From contig JAEPND010000006.1 in the NCBI GenBank assembly GCA_017643585.1, forward strand, positions 117,066 to 181,065: a stretch of 64,000 bases of DNA, given 5' to 3'. The DNA comes from Maricaulis sp. GTDB lineage: Bacteria; Pseudomonadota; Alphaproteobacteria; Caulobacterales; Maricaulaceae. Shown here piece by piece: positions 44,510 through 52,920 of this stretch. The notes below the pieces were generated by a model. It searched no databases and had not been told where the DNA came from. It was given only the letters and a program-made list of their open reading frames with translations. Both the position numbers and the translations under genes were made by a program. Position 1 is the first letter of the stretch, and every line of letters begins with the position of its first letter.

Positions 44510-44794
44510 ATGACCGATCTCAAACCCCTGAGCGAGGCGCTGTTGAGCGTGAAGTCGGCGACCGAGATGGAGCGTTTCCTGACGGATCTCCTCACGCCGG
44601 GCGAAATGAAAACCCTGACCGAACGCTGGCGTGTGGCTGGCCTGTTGGACGAGGGTGGAAACTCCTATCGCGAGATCAGTGAAATCACCGGCGCGAGCAC
44701 TACAACCGTTACCCGTGTCTCGCGCTTCTTGAGCCAGGAAAATCATCAGGGATACCGGCTGGTGCTGGATCGCTTGAAAGGATCGAAATCGTGA
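44510..44794 (+). CDS. TrpR-like YerC/YecD-family DNA-binding protein
   Basis: A 94-residue all-helical protein of the YerC/TrpR-related family. The core LTPGEMKTLTERWRVAGLLDEGGNSYREISEITGASTTTVTRVSRFL has the TrpR-like HTH near residues 52-68. It is the first gene of the his operon, overlaps hisG by 4 bases, and has an 18-bp palindrome just upstream. A role as the histidine-biosynthesis repressor, probably with histidine or a related molecule as co-repressor, is likely from context; the ligand is not shown by the sequence. Confidence 0.85.
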   Translation: MTDLKPLSEALLSVKSATEMERFLTDLLTPGEMKTLTERWRVAGLLDEGGNSYREISEITGASTTTVTRVSRFLSQENHQGYRLVLDRLKGSKS

Positions 44795-45672
44795 CCCGTT
44801 TGCGTATTGCCGTGCAGTCCAAGGGCCGTCTTGCCGAAGGCGGAATGGATTTACTGAAAAACTGCGGACTTCGTTTTGCCTATGGTCGCGACAAGCTGCA
44901 CCAGAGCGCGGAAAACATGCCGGTCGATCTGATGCTCGTCCGTGACGATGATATCCCCAATTTCGTGGCCTCGGGCGCGTGCGATTACGGTATAGTCGGA
45001 GAGAATGTGTTTCGCGAGGAGCAGCTGGGCAGCCGACGTGGCAAGGAGCTGGAAATCGCTCTTCGCCTCGGTTTTTCCAAGTGCACGCTAAAGCTTGCGG
45101 CACCCAAGGGTGGGGCGATCACGTCAGTCGCGGATCTGGATGGCAAGGCGGTTGCGACGTCCTATCCCGCCATCACGGCGGACTATCTGGAACGCAATGG
45201 CGTGAAGGCGGAAATCGTGGAAATGCATGGTTCAGTCGAGGTGGCGCCGCGTCTCAACATCGCCGATGCGATCTGCGACCTCGTCTCTTCCGGCGCGACC
45301 CTTGAAGCCAACGGGCTGGCCGCTTTCGAGACCGTCCTGGTCAGCGAAGCGGTTCTGGTCCGGCGCAAGGAAAGCCGCTCCGGGGAAGCCGATGCGATCG
45401 CGGAAATCCTGATGCGGCGTGCGCAGGGGGTGATCGCGTCAGCCCAGACCAAATACATCATGTTGAATGCGCCGACCGACCGGCTCGATGCCATCAAGGC
45501 GCTGTTGCCCGGTTCGGATGCGCCCACGGTCGCGCAAATCGCGGGGCGGGATGATGTGGTTGCGCTGCATGCTGTCTGCCGGGAACGGGTGTTCTGGGAG
45601 ACGCTTGAAGCGCTGGAAGCGGAGGGCGCCCGCGCCATCCTCGTCCTGCCCATCGAAAAAATGCTGGCCTAG
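44791..45672 (+). CDS. hisG: ATP phosphoribosyltransferase, long form
   Basis: A 293-residue HisG catalysing the first committed step, ATP + PRPP to phosphoribosyl-ATP. The start is GTG, overlapping the previous stop. The catalytic domain contains LRIAVQSKGRLAEGGMDLL, VRDDDIPNFVASGACDYGIVGENVF and LVSSGATLEANGL (PRPP loop). The extra 75-residue C-terminal domain (KYIMLNAPTDRLDAIKALLPG to LVLPIEKML) is the regulatory, histidine-binding domain of the long form, so no HisZ partner is needed. Feedback inhibition by histidine is expected from the family. Confidence 0.96.
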   Translation: MTRLRIAVQSKGRLAEGGMDLLKNCGLRFAYGRDKLHQSAENMPVDLMLVRDDDIPNFVASGACDYGIVGENVFREEQLGSRRGKELEIALRLGFSKCTLKLAAPKGGAITSVADLDGKAVATSYPAITADYLERNGVKAEIVEMHGSVEVAPRLNIADAICDLVSSGATLEANGLAAFETVLVSEAVLVRRKESRSGEADAIAEILMRRAQGVIASAQTKYIMLNAPTDRLDAIKALLPGSDAPTVAQIAGRDDVVALHAVCRERVFWETLEALEAEGARAILVLPIEKMLA

Positions 45673-45681
45673 GGGCGTGTC

Positions 45682-47574
45682 ATGAAGATCCTGAACTGGG
45701 CAGAGCTGGACGAGGCTGAGCGCATCTCCGCGCTCGCCCGACCGGAAGAGACCGGTGCCGCTGCTGGCGCTGCGCGTGACATTGTTGATGCGATTCGAAG
45801 CCAGGGCGAGACGGCCTTGCGGGCGTATGCGTCGCGCCTGGACGGGTATGCACCGGAGCAGTTCCGTGTTGCCGAGGAGGCTTTCACGGCCGCGCTCGAT
45901 GCGATGGACCCGGCCGACCAGGAAGCGATCAAGGCGGCCGCAGATGCGGTGCGCCGCTTCCACGTCAAACAAGGATACACCGGCTATGAGGTCGAGACCT
46001 GGACCGGCGTGAAAGCCTCGCGTCGTGCGACGCCCGTGGACGTCGCCGCCCTTTATGTACCAGCCGGTAGCGCACCGCTGGTGTCCAGCCTGATCATGCT
46101 GGCGGTACCGGCCCAGCTGGCTGGCGTGCCGCGCATTGCGGTTGTAGCTCCGCCCAATGGCAGTGACGGCGTCAATACGTCGCTGCTGGCTGCCGCGAAG
46201 CTGATCGGCATCGATGAGGTCTACGCCGTGGGCGGCGCCCAGGCGATTGCCGCACTGGCTTTTGGGGTGGCGGATATCCCCACGGCGGACAAGATTTTCG
46301 GCCCGGGCAATGCCTATGTGGCTGCGGCCAAGGCCTATGTCACGGCGCTGCCAGGTGGACCTGCTGTTGATCTGCCTGCGGGCCCGAGTGAGGTGATGGT
46401 GGCTGCCGATGCGAGCGCAAATGCCGCGTTTGTCGCCAGTGACCTTCTCAGCCAGGCCGAACATGATGCCAATGCACAAGTGGTCCTGCTGGCCGATGCC
46501 CCGGAAACAGCAGACGCCGTGCTGGCGCAGGTGGACAGCCAGCTTGAGACCTTGCCGCGCGCGGACATCGCGCGGGCGGCACTCGCCAATTCGCTCTGTC
46601 TGGTGTGTCGTGAAGAAGAGGACATGGCGAACGCGGCCAATCTCTATGCCGCGGAACACCTGATTATCCAGACGGGTAATGCAGAACGCCTGGTGGATGC
46701 CGTTCGCCATGCCGGTTCGATTTTCGTGGGGCCCTGGGCTCCGGAGGCCGCGGGCGATTATGCGGCTGGCCCGAACCACACCCTGCCGACCGGTGGCGCA
46801 GCGCGGGCCTATGGTGGTGTGACGGTTGAAGCGTTCCAGAAAACGACGACCATCCTGCGGGCCAGTGAAGCCGGTGCCCGCAATCTGGCGCCGACCGTGG
46901 AACGGCTGGCGGCCCTGGAGGGGCTGGACGCGCACCGCCTAGCTATGGCCAAGCGCCGTGAAAGGGCCTCCGGAGGCTCGGTCGCCGTGGAAGGCGGGCC
47001 GCGCGCCGCTGCGCGTCGTCGCAAGACTGCAGAGACGGATATCGCCTTGTCGATCAACCTCGACCGGGATGGTCCCAACCGGATCAATACCGGCGTTGGG
47101 TATTTCGATCACATGCTGGACCAGATCGCGCGGCATGCCGGCATCTCGCTGTCCATTGATGTTGAGGGCGATTTGGAAATCGATGCGCACCACACCATTG
47201 AAGATGTGTGCCTGACATTCGGGGAAGCACTCGCCGAGGCGCTCGGCGACAAGCGCGGCATTGCCCGTTTCGGATTCGAATTGCCGATGGATGAGACTCG
47301 GGCCGGGGTCTGGATCGATCTTTCAGGCCGTCCCTATGCCAAGTTCGAAGGCGAGATCCCGGGTGATCGAGTCGGGGAGTTTCCGGTGGAAATGACGGCT
47401 CATGCCTTCCGTTCGATCGCTGAAAGTCTGAAGGCGGCGGTTCACGTCAAGGTCGAGGGTGATAATGCCCACCACATGATCGAAGGGTGTTTCAAGGCCT
47501 TTGGCCGTGCCTTGCGCCAGGCCGTACAGATTGAAGGCGATCGCCTGCCATCGACCAAGGAGCACCTGGCATGA
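45682..47574 (+). CDS. hisDB: HisD-HisB fusion: histidinol dehydrogenase + imidazoleglycerol-phosphate dehydratase
   Basis: One 630-residue frame encodes two complete enzymes. Residues 1-425 are histidinol dehydrogenase (step 10): FGPGNAYVAAAK, PAGPSEV, LSQAEHDANAQ (Gln and His zinc ligands), AEHLIIQ (catalytic Glu-His), GDYAAGPNHTLPTGG and EGLDAHR (last His ligand). An Arg/Ala/Gly-rich linker of about 20 residues follows. From residue 446 (base 47017) comes imidazoleglycerol-phosphate dehydratase (step 7): TGVGYFDHMLDQIARH, IDAHHTIEDV, PMDET, LSGRPY and AHHMIEGCFKAF. All metal-binding motifs look intact in both halves. Steps 7 and 10 are not consecutive, so no direct substrate hand-off is expected. 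No hisC or hisN is in the operon. Confidence 0.93.
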   Translation: MKILNWAELDEAERISALARPEETGAAAGAARDIVDAIRSQGETALRAYASRLDGYAPEQFRVAEEAFTAALDAMDPADQEAIKAAADAVRRFHVKQGYTGYEVETWTGVKASRRATPVDVAALYVPAGSAPLVSSLIMLAVPAQLAGVPRIAVVAPPNGSDGVNTSLLAAAKLIGIDEVYAVGGAQAIAALAFGVADIPTADKIFGPGNAYVAAAKAYVTALPGGPAVDLPAGPSEVMVAADASANAAFVASDLLSQAEHDANAQVVLLADAPETADAVLAQVDSQLETLPRADIARAALANSLCLVCREEEDMANAANLYAAEHLIIQTGNAERLVDAVRHAGSIFVGPWAPEAAGDYAAGPNHTLPTGGAARAYGGVTVEAFQKTTTILRASEAGARNLAPTVERLAALEGLDAHRLAMAKRRERASGGSVAVEGGPRAAARRRKTAETDIALSINLDRDGPNRINTGVGYFDHMLDQIARHAGISLSIDVEGDLEIDAHHTIEDVCLTFGEALAEALGDKRGIARFGFELPMDETRAGVWIDLSGRPYAKFEGEIPGDRVGEFPVEMTAHAFRSIAESLKAAVHVKVEGDNAHHMIEGCFKAFGRALRQAVQIEGDRLPSTKEHLA

Positions 47575-48170
47575 CCGTCGGGCTGATTGATACAGGCTGC
47601 GCCAATCTGGCCTCGGTCCGCTTTGCCCTTGAACGGGCCGGGATCGACTACAAGGTCGCTGTGACGCCTGGTCAGGCCGGAGCCTGTGGCCGATTGATCC
47701 TGCCGGGTGTCGGTGCGGCTGCGCCTGCAATGAAACAGCTGGATGCCTCGGGTTGGAGCGAGCAATTGCGGCGTGACGAGCGACCGCTCCTGGGGATCTG
47801 CCTGGGCATGCAGCTCTTGTTCGAATATTCCGCAGAAAGCGATATCGCCTGTCTGGGACTGGTCCCGGGAGAGGTGGCACGACTGCCGCAGGCGGACGGG
47901 CTGGTCTGGCCGCACATGGGCTGGAACGCGCTTGATGTGCTGCAGCCGAATAACGCGCTGCTCAGCGGGATCGACAACGGCGCCTACATGTATTTCGTGC
48001 ACGGTTTCTATGTGCCGGCATCCAGTTTTGCGCTGGCCAGTACCCGCTATGGTGCAGATATCTCTGCCATCGTGAATTCGCGTCATGTCTATGGATGCCA
48101 ATTCCACCCGGAACGGTCCGGCGAAGCGGGTGCTCGTATTCTCAAGAATTTTGCGGAGCTGGTGAGATGA
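47571..48170 (+). CDS. hisH: Imidazole glycerol phosphate synthase, glutaminase subunit HisH
   Basis: A 199-residue class I glutamine amidotransferase that supplies ammonia to HisF. The triad is complete: Cys77 in LLGICLGMQLLF, and His179 with Glu181 in GCQFHPERSG. The usual N-terminal DYGxGN motif reads DTGCANLASV, a mild departure. It overlaps hisDB and hisA by 4 bases each, so translation is coupled. Confidence 0.96.
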   Translation: MTVGLIDTGCANLASVRFALERAGIDYKVAVTPGQAGACGRLILPGVGAAAPAMKQLDASGWSEQLRRDERPLLGICLGMQLLFEYSAESDIACLGLVPGEVARLPQADGLVWPHMGWNALDVLQPNNALLSGIDNGAYMYFVHGFYVPASSFALASTRYGADISAIVNSRHVYGCQFHPERSGEAGARILKNFAELVR

Positions 48171-48901
48171 TCCTCTATCCTGCGATTGATCTGCTTGAAG
48201 ATCGTGTCGTGCGCCTGATGCACGGTAAGTTCGACGCGGTGACGGAATATGCCTCCGACCCGGTTGAGGTTGCACGGCAACTGCGTGATGCGGGTGCGGA
48301 GTGGATCCATGTCGTCGATCTGGCCGGGGCACGAGATGGCGCCCGGCGCCAGGCCGGCGTCATCGCGGAGATCGCGGCCTTGGGTCTTAACATCCAGTCG
48401 GGTGGTGGCGTTCGTTCAAGCGCGGATATCGAGGCGTTTCTTGATGCAGGTGTATCCCGGGTCGTGATCGGTTCGCTGGCGATTTCGGCACCTGAACAGG
48501 TTCTGCCCTGGGTCGACCGCTTCGGCCCGGACCGTCTGACGCTTGCCTTTGATGTGCAGTATGTCGGCGGTGCCTACCGTCCGGCCGTCAAGGGATGGAC
48601 CGATGTGCTCACCGTGACCCTGGATGACGTTATCCAGGCCTATGCTGGCGTGGAGCTGGCGCATGCCCTGGTGACCGATATCGGTCGCGACGGGGATCTG
48701 AGCGGCCCCAATCTCGAGCTCTATCGCTATCTGGTCGAGACTTATCCCAGCGTTGGCTGGCAGGCGTCGGGCGGCGTCTCGTCGCTGGAGGATCTCCAGG
48801 CCGCGCAAGCGACCGGGGCAGCCGGTGCAATCACCGGGCGGGCAATCTATGAGGGGAAATTCAGCGTCGAGGAGGCCCTGGCATGCTTGCAAGACGCATA
48901 A
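48167..48901 (+). CDS. hisA: ProFAR isomerase
   Basis: A 244-residue TIM-barrel isomerase converting ProFAR to PRFAR. Conserved features are the N-terminal [16 protein letters not shown] (catalytic Asp8), [38 protein letters not shown], and [20 protein letters not shown] 48167 is used because it overlaps the hisH stop and gives the standard N terminus MILYPAIDL; the frame extends upstream only within hisH. It overlaps hisF by 19 bases. Confidence 0.96.
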
Positions 48902-49650
48902 TTCCCTGCCTCGACGTCAAGGACGGACAGGTCGTCAAGGGCGTGAAGTTTCGCAATCACGAGGTCGTCGGAGATATCGTCGAACTGGCGCGGCGCCATG
49001 CGGACGAGGGTGCCGACGAGCTGGTCTTCTACGATATTGCTGCGAGTACGCGCGGTGAAACGGTTGAGCCGGCCTGGGTCAGCGCCGTGGCGCGTGTGAT
49101 CGACATTCCCTTCTGCGTGGCCGGCGGGATCAAGAGCGTCGATGATGCGCGCGCCCGCCTGTTTGCGGGGGCGGACAAGATCTCGATCAACACACCTGCG
49201 CTTCAAAACCCCCGGCTTGTCGACAAGCTGGCCGCCGAGTTCGGTTCGCAGTGCGTTGTTGTAGGCATAGACAGCCGCGAGATCGATGGTGAGTGGAGTG
49301 TTCACCAATTCACCGGTGACCCTGACAAGACCCGACGGGCCAACCGCCGCACGCTGGACTGGATCGGTGAGGTTGTGGATCGCGGTGCGGGGGAGATCGT
49401 GCTCAATTGCATGGATCAGGACGGGGTGCGCGACGGCTATGATATCGAACAATTGTCTGCAGCACGGGCGCTTTGTCCCACACCTTTGATCGCCTCGGGT
49501 GGTGCCGGCAAAAAAGAAGACTTCAAAACCGTCTTCAATCAGGCCAATGTGGATGGTGCGCTGGCTGCCAGCGTCTTTCACAAGGGGCTGATCAATATAG
49601 GAAATCTGAAGTCCTATTTGATTGATGAAGGATTGGGCATTCGGCCATGA
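48883..49650 (+). CDS. hisF: Imidazole glycerol phosphate synthase, cyclase subunit HisF
   Basis: A 255-residue TIM-barrel cyclase partner of HisH, producing IGP and AICAR from PRFAR. It has [19 protein letters not shown] (catalytic Asp11), [33 protein letters not shown] (second catalytic Asp) and [13 protein letters not shown]. It starts inside the 3' end of hisA and overlaps hisIE by 4 bases. Confidence 0.97.
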
Positions 49651-50809: not shown

Positions 50810-51550
50810 CTATCCGGGCGAAAACCGTTCCGTCAGTGCGTGACGATCACCGGGATGGGTGAGACGTGCAAGGGTGACGACACGTTGTTCCAGAAAGGTG
50901 CGGCGCTCCAGAACGAGGCAGGCTTCACCGCCATCGATCTGCAGATGATGGGCTGTGTCACGGTCTGCATTTCGGGCCGAAATGGTGTGTTCGGCCTGTG
51001 TCCACGGGGCCTGGTTCAGCAGCCAAGCGCCCGGAGGCATCGCGCTGAAGGCCTCATCGCGGGCTTCGGGAAGCACCTCAAGATTGATCCAGCGCTCTTC
51101 CAGCTCGACGGGGACATCATTGGCGTAATGCAGGCATGTCACCTGGCGCAGGCGCGAGGGTGCGGCCAGTTCGAAGCGCTCCATCAGCGTGGCATCGGCC
51201 GAGATCACATCTGAATCGAGAATCTGGAACCGGTATATCTCGCCGCGTGCCGGGATCAGTTTGGACATGTCGACGATTTCGAGCATCGCTGCGGGTGCGG
51301 GCGGAGGCGCGACGAAGCTGCCGGCCCGGCGCTTGCGCACGACCAGGCCCTCGTCAGCGAGCTCTCGCAGGGCGCGGTTCACCGTCATTCGAGCGGTCTG
51401 GAAATGCTCGGCGAGTTCTTCCTCACCCGGAATACGGTCTCCGGATTTCCAGGCCCCGCCCCGGATCGGCTGTGTCAGGGCGCGCTTGATCTGTTCATAG
51501 ACCGCGCCGCGTCCATCCAGCGACAATTCCAGCTGCCACGTGTTCGCCAT
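50810..51550 (-). CDS. hutC: GntR/HutC-family repressor of histidine utilisation
   Basis: A 246-residue GntR-type regulator. An N-terminal winged helix (YEQIKRALTQPIRGGAWKSGDRIPGEEELAEHFQTARMTVNRALRELADEGLVVRKRRAGSFVA) is followed by a UTRA effector domain (about 90-240, e.g. QVTCLHYANDVPVELEERWINLEVLPE). In characterised relatives urocanate releases HutC from the hut promoters. The gene overlaps the hutF stop by one base, so it is in an operon with hutF. Confidence 0.93.
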   Translation of the reverse strand: MANTWQLELSLDGRGAVYEQIKRALTQPIRGGAWKSGDRIPGEEELAEHFQTARMTVNRALRELADEGLVVRKRRAGSFVAPPPAPAAMLEIVDMSKLIPARGEIYRFQILDSDVISADATLMERFELAAPSRLRQVTCLHYANDVPVELEERWINLEVLPEARDEAFSAMPPGAWLLNQAPWTQAEHTISARNADRDTAHHLQIDGGEACLVLERRTFLEQRVVTLARLTHPGDRHALTERFSPG

Positions 51551-52920
51551 CAGTTCTCAACCCTTCGCATCAACGCGGTGATGCACTGGGCATACCGCTG
51601 TCGGATGTCGTCACCGGCCAGACAGCGACCATCTGTGACAACCTGCTTCCCCCCGACATAGACGCAATCAACCTGACGTCCACTCCCGGCGAACATCCAG
51701 CTGTCGAGAAGCGTGTCTTCCTGGCGGGCCAGAAGGGCCGTGGCATTGACGTCCAGGGTCACGAAATCAGCGCGCATGCCGACAGCAATCTGACCGGTGC
51801 GCTGGCCTAGCGCTGCTGCGCCACCCAGGGCACAGGATTGATACAGGGACTGGCCGAGATGCTCGCCGGGGTCGGCCAGAACATTGCGCTGACGCCGAAG
51901 AAGCCGCTGACCATATTCCAGCAATCGCAATTCCTCAGGCAGGTCGATGCGGATATGGCTATCAGAACCGATGCCCACACGGCCGCCTGCGCGCCGATAG
52001 TCATCCGCCGGGAAAATACCATCGCCGAGATTGGCCTCGGTCAGTGGGCACAAGCCTGCGACCGCGCCCGATCTCGCAACAGCGCGGGTCTCTTCGGCGG
52101 TCATATGGGTGGCGTGAACCAGGCACCAGCGCTGATCCAGCGCGACGGTGTCCATCAGCAAGTCCACCGGGCGACGGCCGTGTGCAGCCAGGCAATCCTC
52201 GACCTCCTGGGTCTGCTCGGCGATGTGGATGTGGATGGGGTCGGACGGCCTCAGCCCGGCGAGCCACCCAAGGTCCTCGAGATTGGCGGCGCGCAATGAA
52301 TGTGGTGCGACACCGAGGCGGGCGAAAGGTAGGTGTTCAAGGTGTCGCTGGCTGGCCTCGATCAGGGCGGCATATCTGTCCGGGTCGTTGAAAAACCGCC
52401 TTTGCCCCGCGTGCGTGGGCTTATTGCCAAAGCCCGCGCAGCGATAGAAGACCGGAAGCAGGGTGAGTGCGATCCCGCTGGTTTGCGCGGCGCGACAGAT
52501 GCGTCCGGACATCTCTGCCAGATCCGAGAAGGGTGTGCCATCGCGGTCATGGTGCAGATAGTGGAACTCCCCGACACTGGTGAAACCGGTTTCCAGCATC
52601 TCGCAATAAACAAGGGCGGCGATGGCCTCGACATCCCCAGGCGTAAGGTGGTCGTTAAAGGCGTACATGACTTCGCGCCAGGTCCAGAAACTGTCATCGC
52701 TTGTGCCGCGTTGTTCGGACAGTCCGGCCATGCCGCGTTGAAAGGCGTGGCTGTGAAGATTGGCCATTCCGGGCAAGGCGTGATCGTGCAGGGTGTCGCC
52801 GGGAAGACGCTCGGCCGCGGCCTCGCAGCTCCCGATCATGCCGTCAGGATTGATAGTGACGCGAACATTGCGGGACCACCCCTCGGGAAGCAGGGCGTGT
52901 TCGAAGAAGAATCCGGTCAT
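51550..52920 (-). CDS. hutF: Formimidoylglutamate deiminase
   Basis: A 456-residue amidohydrolase converting N-formimino-L-glutamate to N-formyl-L-glutamate and ammonia. It has the metal-binding LPGMANLHSHAFQRGM, an active-site FHYLHHDRDG segment, APHSLRAA, HIHIAEQTQEVEDC and GIGSDSHIRIDLPEELRLLEYGQRL. The presence of HutF with HutG shows the two-step route from formiminoglutamate, instead of a single HutG-type formiminoglutamase. It is divergent from hutI, with a HutC-like site between. Confidence 0.95.
   Translation of the reverse strand: MTGFFFEHALLPEGWSRNVRVTINPDGMIGSCEAAAERLPGDTLHDHALPGMANLHSHAFQRGMAGLSEQRGTSDDSFWTWREVMYAFNDHLTPGDVEAIAALVYCEMLETGFTSVGEFHYLHHDRDGTPFSDLAEMSGRICRAAQTSGIALTLLPVFYRCAGFGNKPTHAGQRRFFNDPDRYAALIEASQRHLEHLPFARLGVAPHSLRAANLEDLGWLAGLRPSDPIHIHIAEQTQEVEDCLAAHGRRPVDLLMDTVALDQRWCLVHATHMTAEETRAVARSGAVAGLCPLTEANLGDGIFPADDYRRAGGRVGIGSDSHIRIDLPEELRLLEYGQRLLRRQRNVLADPGEHLGQSLYQSCALGGAAALGQRTGQIAVGMRADFVTLDVNATALLARQEDTLLDSWMFAGSGRQVDCVYVGGKQVVTDGRCLAGDDIRQRYAQCITALMRRVEN

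Follow-up and report, generated by a model that had tools for sequence, protein, structure and literature searches.

Several fusions of histidine biosynthesis genes have been described, namely HisNB, HisIE, HisHF and HIS4 (available parts of PMC1963479, PMC8305728 and PMC6029752). Here, we analyse a 64,000-nucleotide stretch of DNA from Maricaulis sp. (contig JAEPND010000006.1, positions 117,066 to 181,065 of the forward strand), referred to below as the window, in which histidinol dehydrogenase (HisD) and imidazoleglycerol-phosphate (IGP) dehydratase (HisB) are encoded by one gene. This gene most probably (probability about 0.76) specifies a working bifunctional enzyme that arose by the serial loss of the N-terminal neighbour of HisB. 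A report of a HisD-HisB or HisC-HisB fusion was not found by title or abstract in the literature searched, from which subscription journals were largely absent, and automatic annotation may list such proteins; as far as that literature goes, HisD-HisB is a his fusion that has not been described previously. Nor did it yield a relevant title on pseudoenzymes and the loss of domains. The expressions 'hisD-hisB' and 'hisC-hisB' in PMC3828012 and PMC6432763 were considered as possible fusions and rejected, as in the accessible text of these papers they denote gene orders.

The Maricaulis gene shares features with several known systems. As in E. coli HisNB, HisB is the C-terminal part of a bifunctional chain, and both the HisB subtype and the operon type are the same; however, the partner in E. 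coli is HisN, a phosphatase of the haloacid dehalogenase (HAD) type, whereas the Maricaulis gene has HisD and no HisN part. HisD is also a component of multifunctional histidine-pathway chains in fungal HIS4 (HisI-HisE-HisD), where it is C-terminal and fused to HisIE according to the available part of PMC1963479, and in the heptafunctional histidine protein of Acanthamoeba, where it is joined to other enzymes of the pathway but IGP dehydratase is the product of a separate gene (PMC6029752, as far as its accessible text goes). In the Firmicutes Anoxybacillus (L033) and Clostridium acetobutylicum (PMC3828012, available part), hisD lies directly before hisB with no hisC between them, but the Anoxybacillus genes are two frames with a stop and a gap of 54 bases between them, and those of C. 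acetobutylicum are separate in the same part of that source. The HisB of Balneolota has a short N-terminal domain other than HisN, which is possibly a decayed partner too; nevertheless, it is not fused to HisD, and the domain is reported to be similar only to itself in the accessible part of PMC8305728. For the sampled Rhodothermota, that part of PMC8305728 gives HisB as the IGPD domain only, with no special HisD structures.

The fused protein and its conservation

The fusion gene and its parts have the following coordinates:

45682..47574, forward strand: hisD-hisB fusion gene of 630 amino acids; a single frame with two full domains, the same frame in 19/19 Maricaulis genomes
45682..46956, forward strand: HisD domain, residues 1-425; PF00815 at 26-425, Foldseek match to 1kae, motifs kept
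46957..47004, forward strand: junction, residues 426-441, comprising the end of the last HisD helix and a flexible linker; low confidence at 433-437, HisB strand from 442, no conserved internal start
47005..47571, forward strand: HisB (IGP dehydratase) domain, residues 442-630; PF00475 at 470-611, of the type of the C-terminal half of HisNB

The open frame runs without interruption from the ATG at 45682 to the stop at 47574. Nearly full-length Pfam profiles match both halves of the protein: Histidinol_dh (PF00815) at residues 26-425 with 463.8 bits, and IGPD (PF00475) at residues 470-611 with 189.8 bits, each against a cut-off of 27. The NCBIfam models TIGR00069 for hisD and NF002111 for HisB score 468.5 bits (cut-off 243.8) and 235.8 bits (cut-off 231), respectively. 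The HisNB model NF003937 reaches 272.4 bits against a cut-off of 443 and aligns through its C-terminal half only (profile positions 165-353); the HAD phosphatase domain of this family is missing from the fusion protein, the N-terminal half of which is HisD. A pattern search located QAEH, EHL, GDYA and NH, which we take to be the metal-binding and catalytic motifs of HisD, and two HHxxE motifs in the HisB half (HHTIED and NAHHMIE), presumably the metal motifs of HisB. Both halves retain their motifs in the 30 fused proteins examined, save two cut or masked places, and the Maricaulis version of one searched motif reads YFDHML.

The AlphaFold2 model of the fusion (56 sequences) has a mean predicted local distance difference test (pLDDT) score of 90.7 and contains two confident domains, each folded as its own family. 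The last helix of HisD ends at residue 429 and the first strand of HisB begins at residue 442, so that the linker is about 12 residues long; residues 433-437 have a pLDDT below 50. Foldseek searches with the model retrieved HisD structures (1kae, template modelling score by target 0.92) and IGPD structures (e.g. 6fwh, 0.90). Among the PDB chains found by sequence (E <=1e-10, 29 distinct sequences), every match is confined to one half, and none extends over both. The frame, Pfam, NCBIfam, AlphaFold2 and Foldseek thus bear out the original prediction, which was made from the letters of the window, that one 630-codon frame holds a complete HisD and a complete HisB with intact metal motifs in both. 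A short linker had been expected at residues of about 426-445, and the modelled one falls within this range. From the sequence, we infer that the product of the gene works as a bifunctional enzyme, with predicted IGP dehydratase and histidinol dehydrogenase activities.

HisD and HisB share one open frame in 19/19 Maricaulis genomes, including two single-contig ones (G009 and G015), and none of the 19 has a stop codon and a hisB start between the halves. In 18 of them, at least 624 of the 630 residues are matched without a stop; in G012, the match extends over residues 265-629 only, because the contig ends there. Identity to the fusion of the window is 61-90% across Maricaulis, and because it drops to 61% within the genus (G010), the fusion is an old, conserved feature. 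At least 127 of the 137 genomes of the window's family have a match to the fusion protein; in this search, a divergent fusion from G083 scored 690 bits. Two members of the family, G084 (99% complete) and G034 (92%), have no HisD-HisB match among the matches listed, and are possible histidine auxotrophs or may have a different operon. Sampling 385 alphaproteobacterial genomes gave 276 with a match to the fusion, and among the matches listed (down to about 262 bits) both halves are spanned in the window's own genome only.

Locus states and the domain in front of HisB

The loci analysed are 61 from the family and order (Maricaulis among them) that have both genes, and four from named records. The single-frame HisD-HisB state is found in the 19 Maricaulis loci and in G083, which belongs to another genus. 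In 12/61 loci, hisD is followed, usually with an overlap of 4 bases, by an open reading frame of 545-555 residues in which HisC is fused to HisB, and the motif with the lysine that binds pyridoxal phosphate (PLP), RTLSK, is present in 12/12 of them. In three of the 61 loci, from another family of the order (L150, L151 and L152, of G038, G042 and G058), the gene after hisD encodes HisB joined to a half-decayed HisC of 287-295 residues, in which RSLSL, within the sequence RSLSLAYGLAG, takes the place of RTLSK and the PLP lysine is replaced. This form is unmistakably HisC by similarity (E=1.2e-46; Aminotran_1_2 58.7 bits) and, judged by its motif, is a pseudoenzyme caught mid-decay. The last state, with a HisC remnant of 186-234 residues that lacks the catalytic core and is fused to HisB behind hisD, accounts for 26/61 loci; the longest remnants include about 20 codons overlapping hisD because the first possible start was taken. 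HisC-HisB occurs in distant genera of the window's family and remnant-HisB in nearer ones. The position and operon neighbours of the remnant are those of HisC, and it too usually overlaps hisD by 4 bases.

As a background, 72 loci with both hisD and hisB were obtained from 80 fetched named records. HisC lies between hisD and hisB in 67/72, a HisN-like domain precedes HisB in 60/72, and DxDGT is present in the HisB frame in 59. In other bacteria, the order in such operons is mostly hisD, hisC, hisN-hisB. The five loci without HisC are the Maricaulis record L031, at 72% identity, its relative Woodsholea with a remnant, Anoxybacillus with separate adjacent genes, and the fusions L032 and L034. 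A single frame for HisC and HisB is also found in L045 (8164-9909), an alphaproteobacterial record from outside the family, which has extra sequence between hisD and the HisC-HisB gene.

The remnant before HisB in the sister genera is probably a decayed HisC, as indicated by profile comparison (hhalign) of 25 remnant rows with 12 intact HisC rows, with 40 column shuffles as a control for each comparison. Because the whole-length remnant matched HisC with a probability of only 14% (E=4.3e-4, best of 40 shuffles 0.088), its profile was split into N- and C-terminal parts. The N-terminal part matches HisC residues 55-96, the NRYP...GRGADEA region, with E=5.8e-5 and a probability of 66% (best shuffle 0.15), and the C-terminal part matches residues 253-362 with E=1.8e-4 and a probability of 49% (best shuffle 0.074). 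The two segments are in the same order as in HisC, and reversed controls gave E values of 0.39-0.54. HisC residues 97-252, which form the PLP-binding core, have no counterpart in the two matched segments; a core with its lysine, as in an active HisC, was found neither in the five remnants scanned with Pfam nor in the profile alignment. A remnant-like domain also precedes HisB in L190, from G245 of another GTDB family, the HisD of which is 59% identical to that of Maricaulis.

A separate full-length HisC was searched for with the HisC family, above its cut-off, in 61 genomes. It is present in 7/7 remnant genomes (G021, G022, G025, G027, G030, G031 and G032), 3/3 half-decayed genomes and 17/19 Maricaulis genomes, the two others being G006 and G007 (90% and 69% complete). 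Hence, 27/29 genomes with a dead or missing operonic HisC have a separate HisC, in contrast to only 2/11 genomes with an intact HisC-HisB (G020 and G024). In the tree, the unlinked HisC groups with the HisC of other alphaproteobacterial families, and the fused HisC is placed apart, next to Vibrio and Rheinheimera, with a weak support of 0.33. The simplest reading of these sequences is that the operon is foreign and its HisC redundant wherever another HisC survived.

Neutral drift brings the ratio of nonsynonymous to synonymous substitution rates (dN/dS) near 1. The dN/dS of the decayed domains, calculated by the Nei-Gojobori method, is 0.05-0.46 in 16 genome pairs (13 remnant and 3 half-decayed), which were hand-chosen and are non-independent, with silent sites partly saturated (proportion of synonymous differences, pS, up to 0.71). 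It is never below that of HisB, and is below that of HisD in four pairs. The decayed domains are thus under purifying selection, and therefore the remnants likely have a non-catalytic role. Candidate reasons for keeping a dead domain are the solubility or assembly of HisB, or a HisB without its own translation start. Because the decayed middle domains of the relatives are under purifying selection, a structural or assembly role is indirectly favoured, which partly supports the idea of co-assembly in the original prediction.

Gene trees and the Rhodothermales fusions

In the tree of HisD and HisB, the family and order loci group in a single clade with a support of 1.0. The neighbours of this clade are loci of the hisD-hisC-hisNB kind; the next branch has a support of 0.955 and the deeper branches are weak. 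In the gene trees, the HisD-HisB fusions are positioned among the remnant carriers, and the remnant carriers among the HisC-HisB carriers. G083 is nested in genus g8, with supports of 0.967 and 0.978 in FastTree, and a Shimodaira-Hasegawa-like approximate likelihood ratio test (SH-aLRT) value of 99 with HisG added; the six other g8 members sampled are remnant carriers. It is likely that two fusion events occurred in the family, one in Maricaulis and one in G083.

Outside Proteobacteria, L032 and L034, two loci from Rhodothermales, also have a single-frame HisD-HisB. The fusion was found in 24/114 Rhodothermales genomes; in 21 of them both halves are spanned without a stop, and in the other three (G628, G629 and G633) the match spans the junction and ends at contig edges. 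Five Rhodothermales loci have hisD followed directly by HisN-HisB, and in G566 and G569 a domain of about 130 residues that no longer has the HAD motif DRDGT lies between hisD and HisB. The joint profile of these two domains matches HisN with E=2.3e-4 (best of 40 shuffles 0.11) and the HisC remnants with E 0.022. In the tree, G566 and G569 are placed among the Rhodothermales fusions with weak supports of 0.48 and 0.76. The next relatives of these fusions are Bacteroidetes-type loci with hisC and an intact HisNB (support 0.99). It is likely, but less well supported, that a decayed HisN led to the Rhodothermales HisD-HisB.

In the proteobacterial locus L040, the gene after hisC (353.7 bits) joins HisB to a decayed HisN, which scores 34.3 bits with NF003937 against the cut-off of 443 and matches HisN with E=1.8e-11. 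L040 and the Rhodothermales middle domains indicate that HisB partners decay in place elsewhere too. The HisB of L061 (5175-6074, Balneolaceae) has a 114-residue N-terminal domain containing a 24-residue match to HisN (E=1.7e-4, best shuffle 0.021), and hmmsearch found no HisN match in this domain; the similarity is only suggestive of a decayed HisN. This domain may be the one left unexplained in PMC8305728. In L049 and L051, too, hisC is present and HisB gave no HisN match.

Origin of the fusion and setting of the operon

In the proposed course of serial loss, the family would first have gained an operon organized as hisG-D-C-[N-B]-H-A-F-[IE]. HisN would then have been lost, and HisC would have become fused to HisB. 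In hosts with another HisC, the redundant operonic HisC would have lost its PLP-binding core and shrunk to about 200 residues while staying joined to HisB. The remnant would finally have been lost in Maricaulis, and apparently separately in G083, with HisD joined in frame to HisB, so that HisD may now serve HisB as the N-terminal partner, as HisC or the remnant did before. A similar course via a decayed HisN may give HisD-HisB in Rhodothermales. The states from HisC-HisB onwards, their places in the gene trees, the intact motifs and the second HisC can be read directly from the genomes, and from them we infer the order of events and the need of HisB for an N-terminal partner in folding, assembly or translation. 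The sequences suggest a decay series ending in the fusion, which the original prediction had not foreseen and which would explain the existence of the fusion without selection for pairing HisD with HisB.

Fusions of his genes are generally treated as the joining of related enzymes; the series described here suggests fusion by subtraction, and in living relatives the enzyme domain that is being lost can still be seen between HisD and HisB. With this series it can be tested whether a catalytically dead domain persists because the adjacent enzyme requires a physical partner; the series also offers one possible explanation of where the unexplained N-terminal domain of Balneolota HisB came from, and implies that fusion does not have to entail channelling. 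A broader generalization, which we hold tentatively and at slightly less than even odds, would treat the N-terminus of HisB as a slot, the occupant of which is replaced along the operon (HisN, HisC, HisD). Redundant partners would become structural pseudoenzyme domains under selection until the next upstream gene was captured, and HisD-HisB would be a convergent endpoint reached in Maricaulis, G083 and Rhodothermales via different dead middle domains.

Several observations weigh against an origin by serial loss. The profile matches of the remnant to HisC beat their shuffles yet are weak in absolute terms, with hhalign probabilities of 14-66%, the whole-length comparison being the lowest. Pfam gave no significant match, and no aminotransferase, in the five remnants scanned (one insignificant match, E 0.26), NCBIfam gave no match in the one remnant scanned, and the AlphaFold2 model of one remnant (Woodsholea; 17 sequences) has a pLDDT below 50. 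The two fusion events are not proven: with 46 rows, a single clade of all HisD-HisB fusions is not rejected by the approximately unbiased (AU) test (p 0.14), and G083, a single fragmented genome, has a long branch. In the HisD tree, G010 is adjacent to the other Maricaulis but outside their group; it is unplaced with HisG added, and joins them in the AU-test tree with a support of 99. The HisD of G021 groups with the HisC-HisB carriers despite the remnant of this genome (L137), which resembles the other remnants (E=1.6e-22). This discordance may be due to transfer or to a wrong tree, and transfer of an operon or gene is possible for the odd placement of both G245 and G021. In Rhodothermales, the domains of G566 and G569 taken singly match HisN with E values of only 0.027 and 0.02, the four sampled HisN-HisB carriers are not beside the fusions, and the weakness of the deep branches of the HisD and HisB tree applies here as well.

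The fusion may instead have been selected directly, with HisD dimers tied to HisB 24-mers to fix the stoichiometry or build a larger assembly, and the remnants being incidental. The maintenance of the fusion throughout the genus down to 61% identity, its occurrence in Rhodothermales, and the short linker between two confident domains agree with this possibility, which we nevertheless consider rather unlikely: the remnant carriers keep an N-terminal partner on HisB after its catalytic core has been lost, and the sister genera keep hisD separate. Because HisB keeps even a core-less partner in the remnant carriers, pairing with HisD specifically is not required. The decay series would be illusory if the remnants were an unrelated insert and not decayed HisC. 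This is improbable, as two segments match HisC in the right order beyond 40 shuffles each, with reversed controls at 0.39-0.54, a related family has a half-decayed form that is clearly similar to aminotransferases, and the place, the neighbours and usually the 4-base hisD overlap are the same; on the other side are the lack of a significant family match in the remnants tried (five in Pfam, one in NCBIfam) and the whole-length profile probability of 14% (E=4.3e-4). An assembly or base-calling error that removed a stop and a hisB start, put forward in the original prediction as a possible refutation, has a negligible probability, since 19/19 genomes of the genus share the single frame, among them two single-contig ones, and nothing was found in favour of an error. 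Close relatives with a stop at the junction had been named as another refutation; there are none in the genus, and the separate genes of the sister genera have another domain before HisB.

Two further explanations concern how the protein works. Very little speaks for an internal start in the linker that also yields free HisB. In the window, GGAGG precedes an in-frame GTG at 46987 by 10 bases, within the linker (46972-46989), but a Shine-Dalgarno (SD) sequence with an in-frame start is present in 1/19 Maricaulis sequences and is thus not conserved. An SD-like site with an in-frame start within 30 codons before HisB was found in 3/60 loci of all states, in a scan that is weak because only 7/60 downstream hisH starts show such an SD. 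Channelling of intermediates between the two active sites is hardly credible. Both enzymes belong to the same pathway, but HisC and HisN act between them, so the steps are indeed non-consecutive, as originally predicted; in place of the numbers 7 and 10 given there, IGP dehydratase is step 6 of histidine synthesis (PMC10978614, available part), and HisD catalyses the last two steps. The HisC and HisN parts that lie between hisD and hisB in relatives are missing here; the operon lacks both, and elsewhere the genome has an unlinked HisC gene (G000:C4:65169-66224, 305 bits) and an unlinked HisN candidate of the TIGR02067 kind (G000:C10:2078-2830, 290 bits). Because the two intervening enzymes come from unlinked genes, simple substrate channelling is unlikely, in line with the earlier expectation.

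The remaining genes of the his operon surround the fusion gene:

44510..44794, forward strand: YerC/HisR-like TrpR-family gene, first of the operon; TIGR02531 65.4 bits, cut-off 42.2
44791..45672, forward strand: hisG, ATP phosphoribosyltransferase; TIGR00070 184.7 bits, TIGR03455 98.1 bits
47571..48170, forward strand: hisH; TIGR01855 198.3 bits, 4-base overlap with the stop of the fusion
48167..48901, forward strand: hisA; TIGR00007 223.2 bits, slightly below the cut-off of 228.95 (scanned from 48158)
48883..49650, forward strand: hisF; TIGR00735 313.1 bits
49647..50270, forward strand: hisIE, a second fusion within the operon; NF002747 268.8 bits

The ATG of hisA at 48167 overlaps the stop of hisH. 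The published proteobacterial HisR site has no match in the 64-kb window with up to two mismatches allowed. The histidine pathway is presumably completed by HisC and HisN from the genes elsewhere in the genome; a histidinol-phosphatase of the TIGR02067 kind was matched elsewhere in 37/37 genomes, in 28 of them over the cut-off. Just downstream of the operon, hutC (TIGR02018 288.7 bits) and hutF are located on the opposite strand (window 50810-52920, reverse strand), so that genes of histidine breakdown adjoin those of its synthesis.

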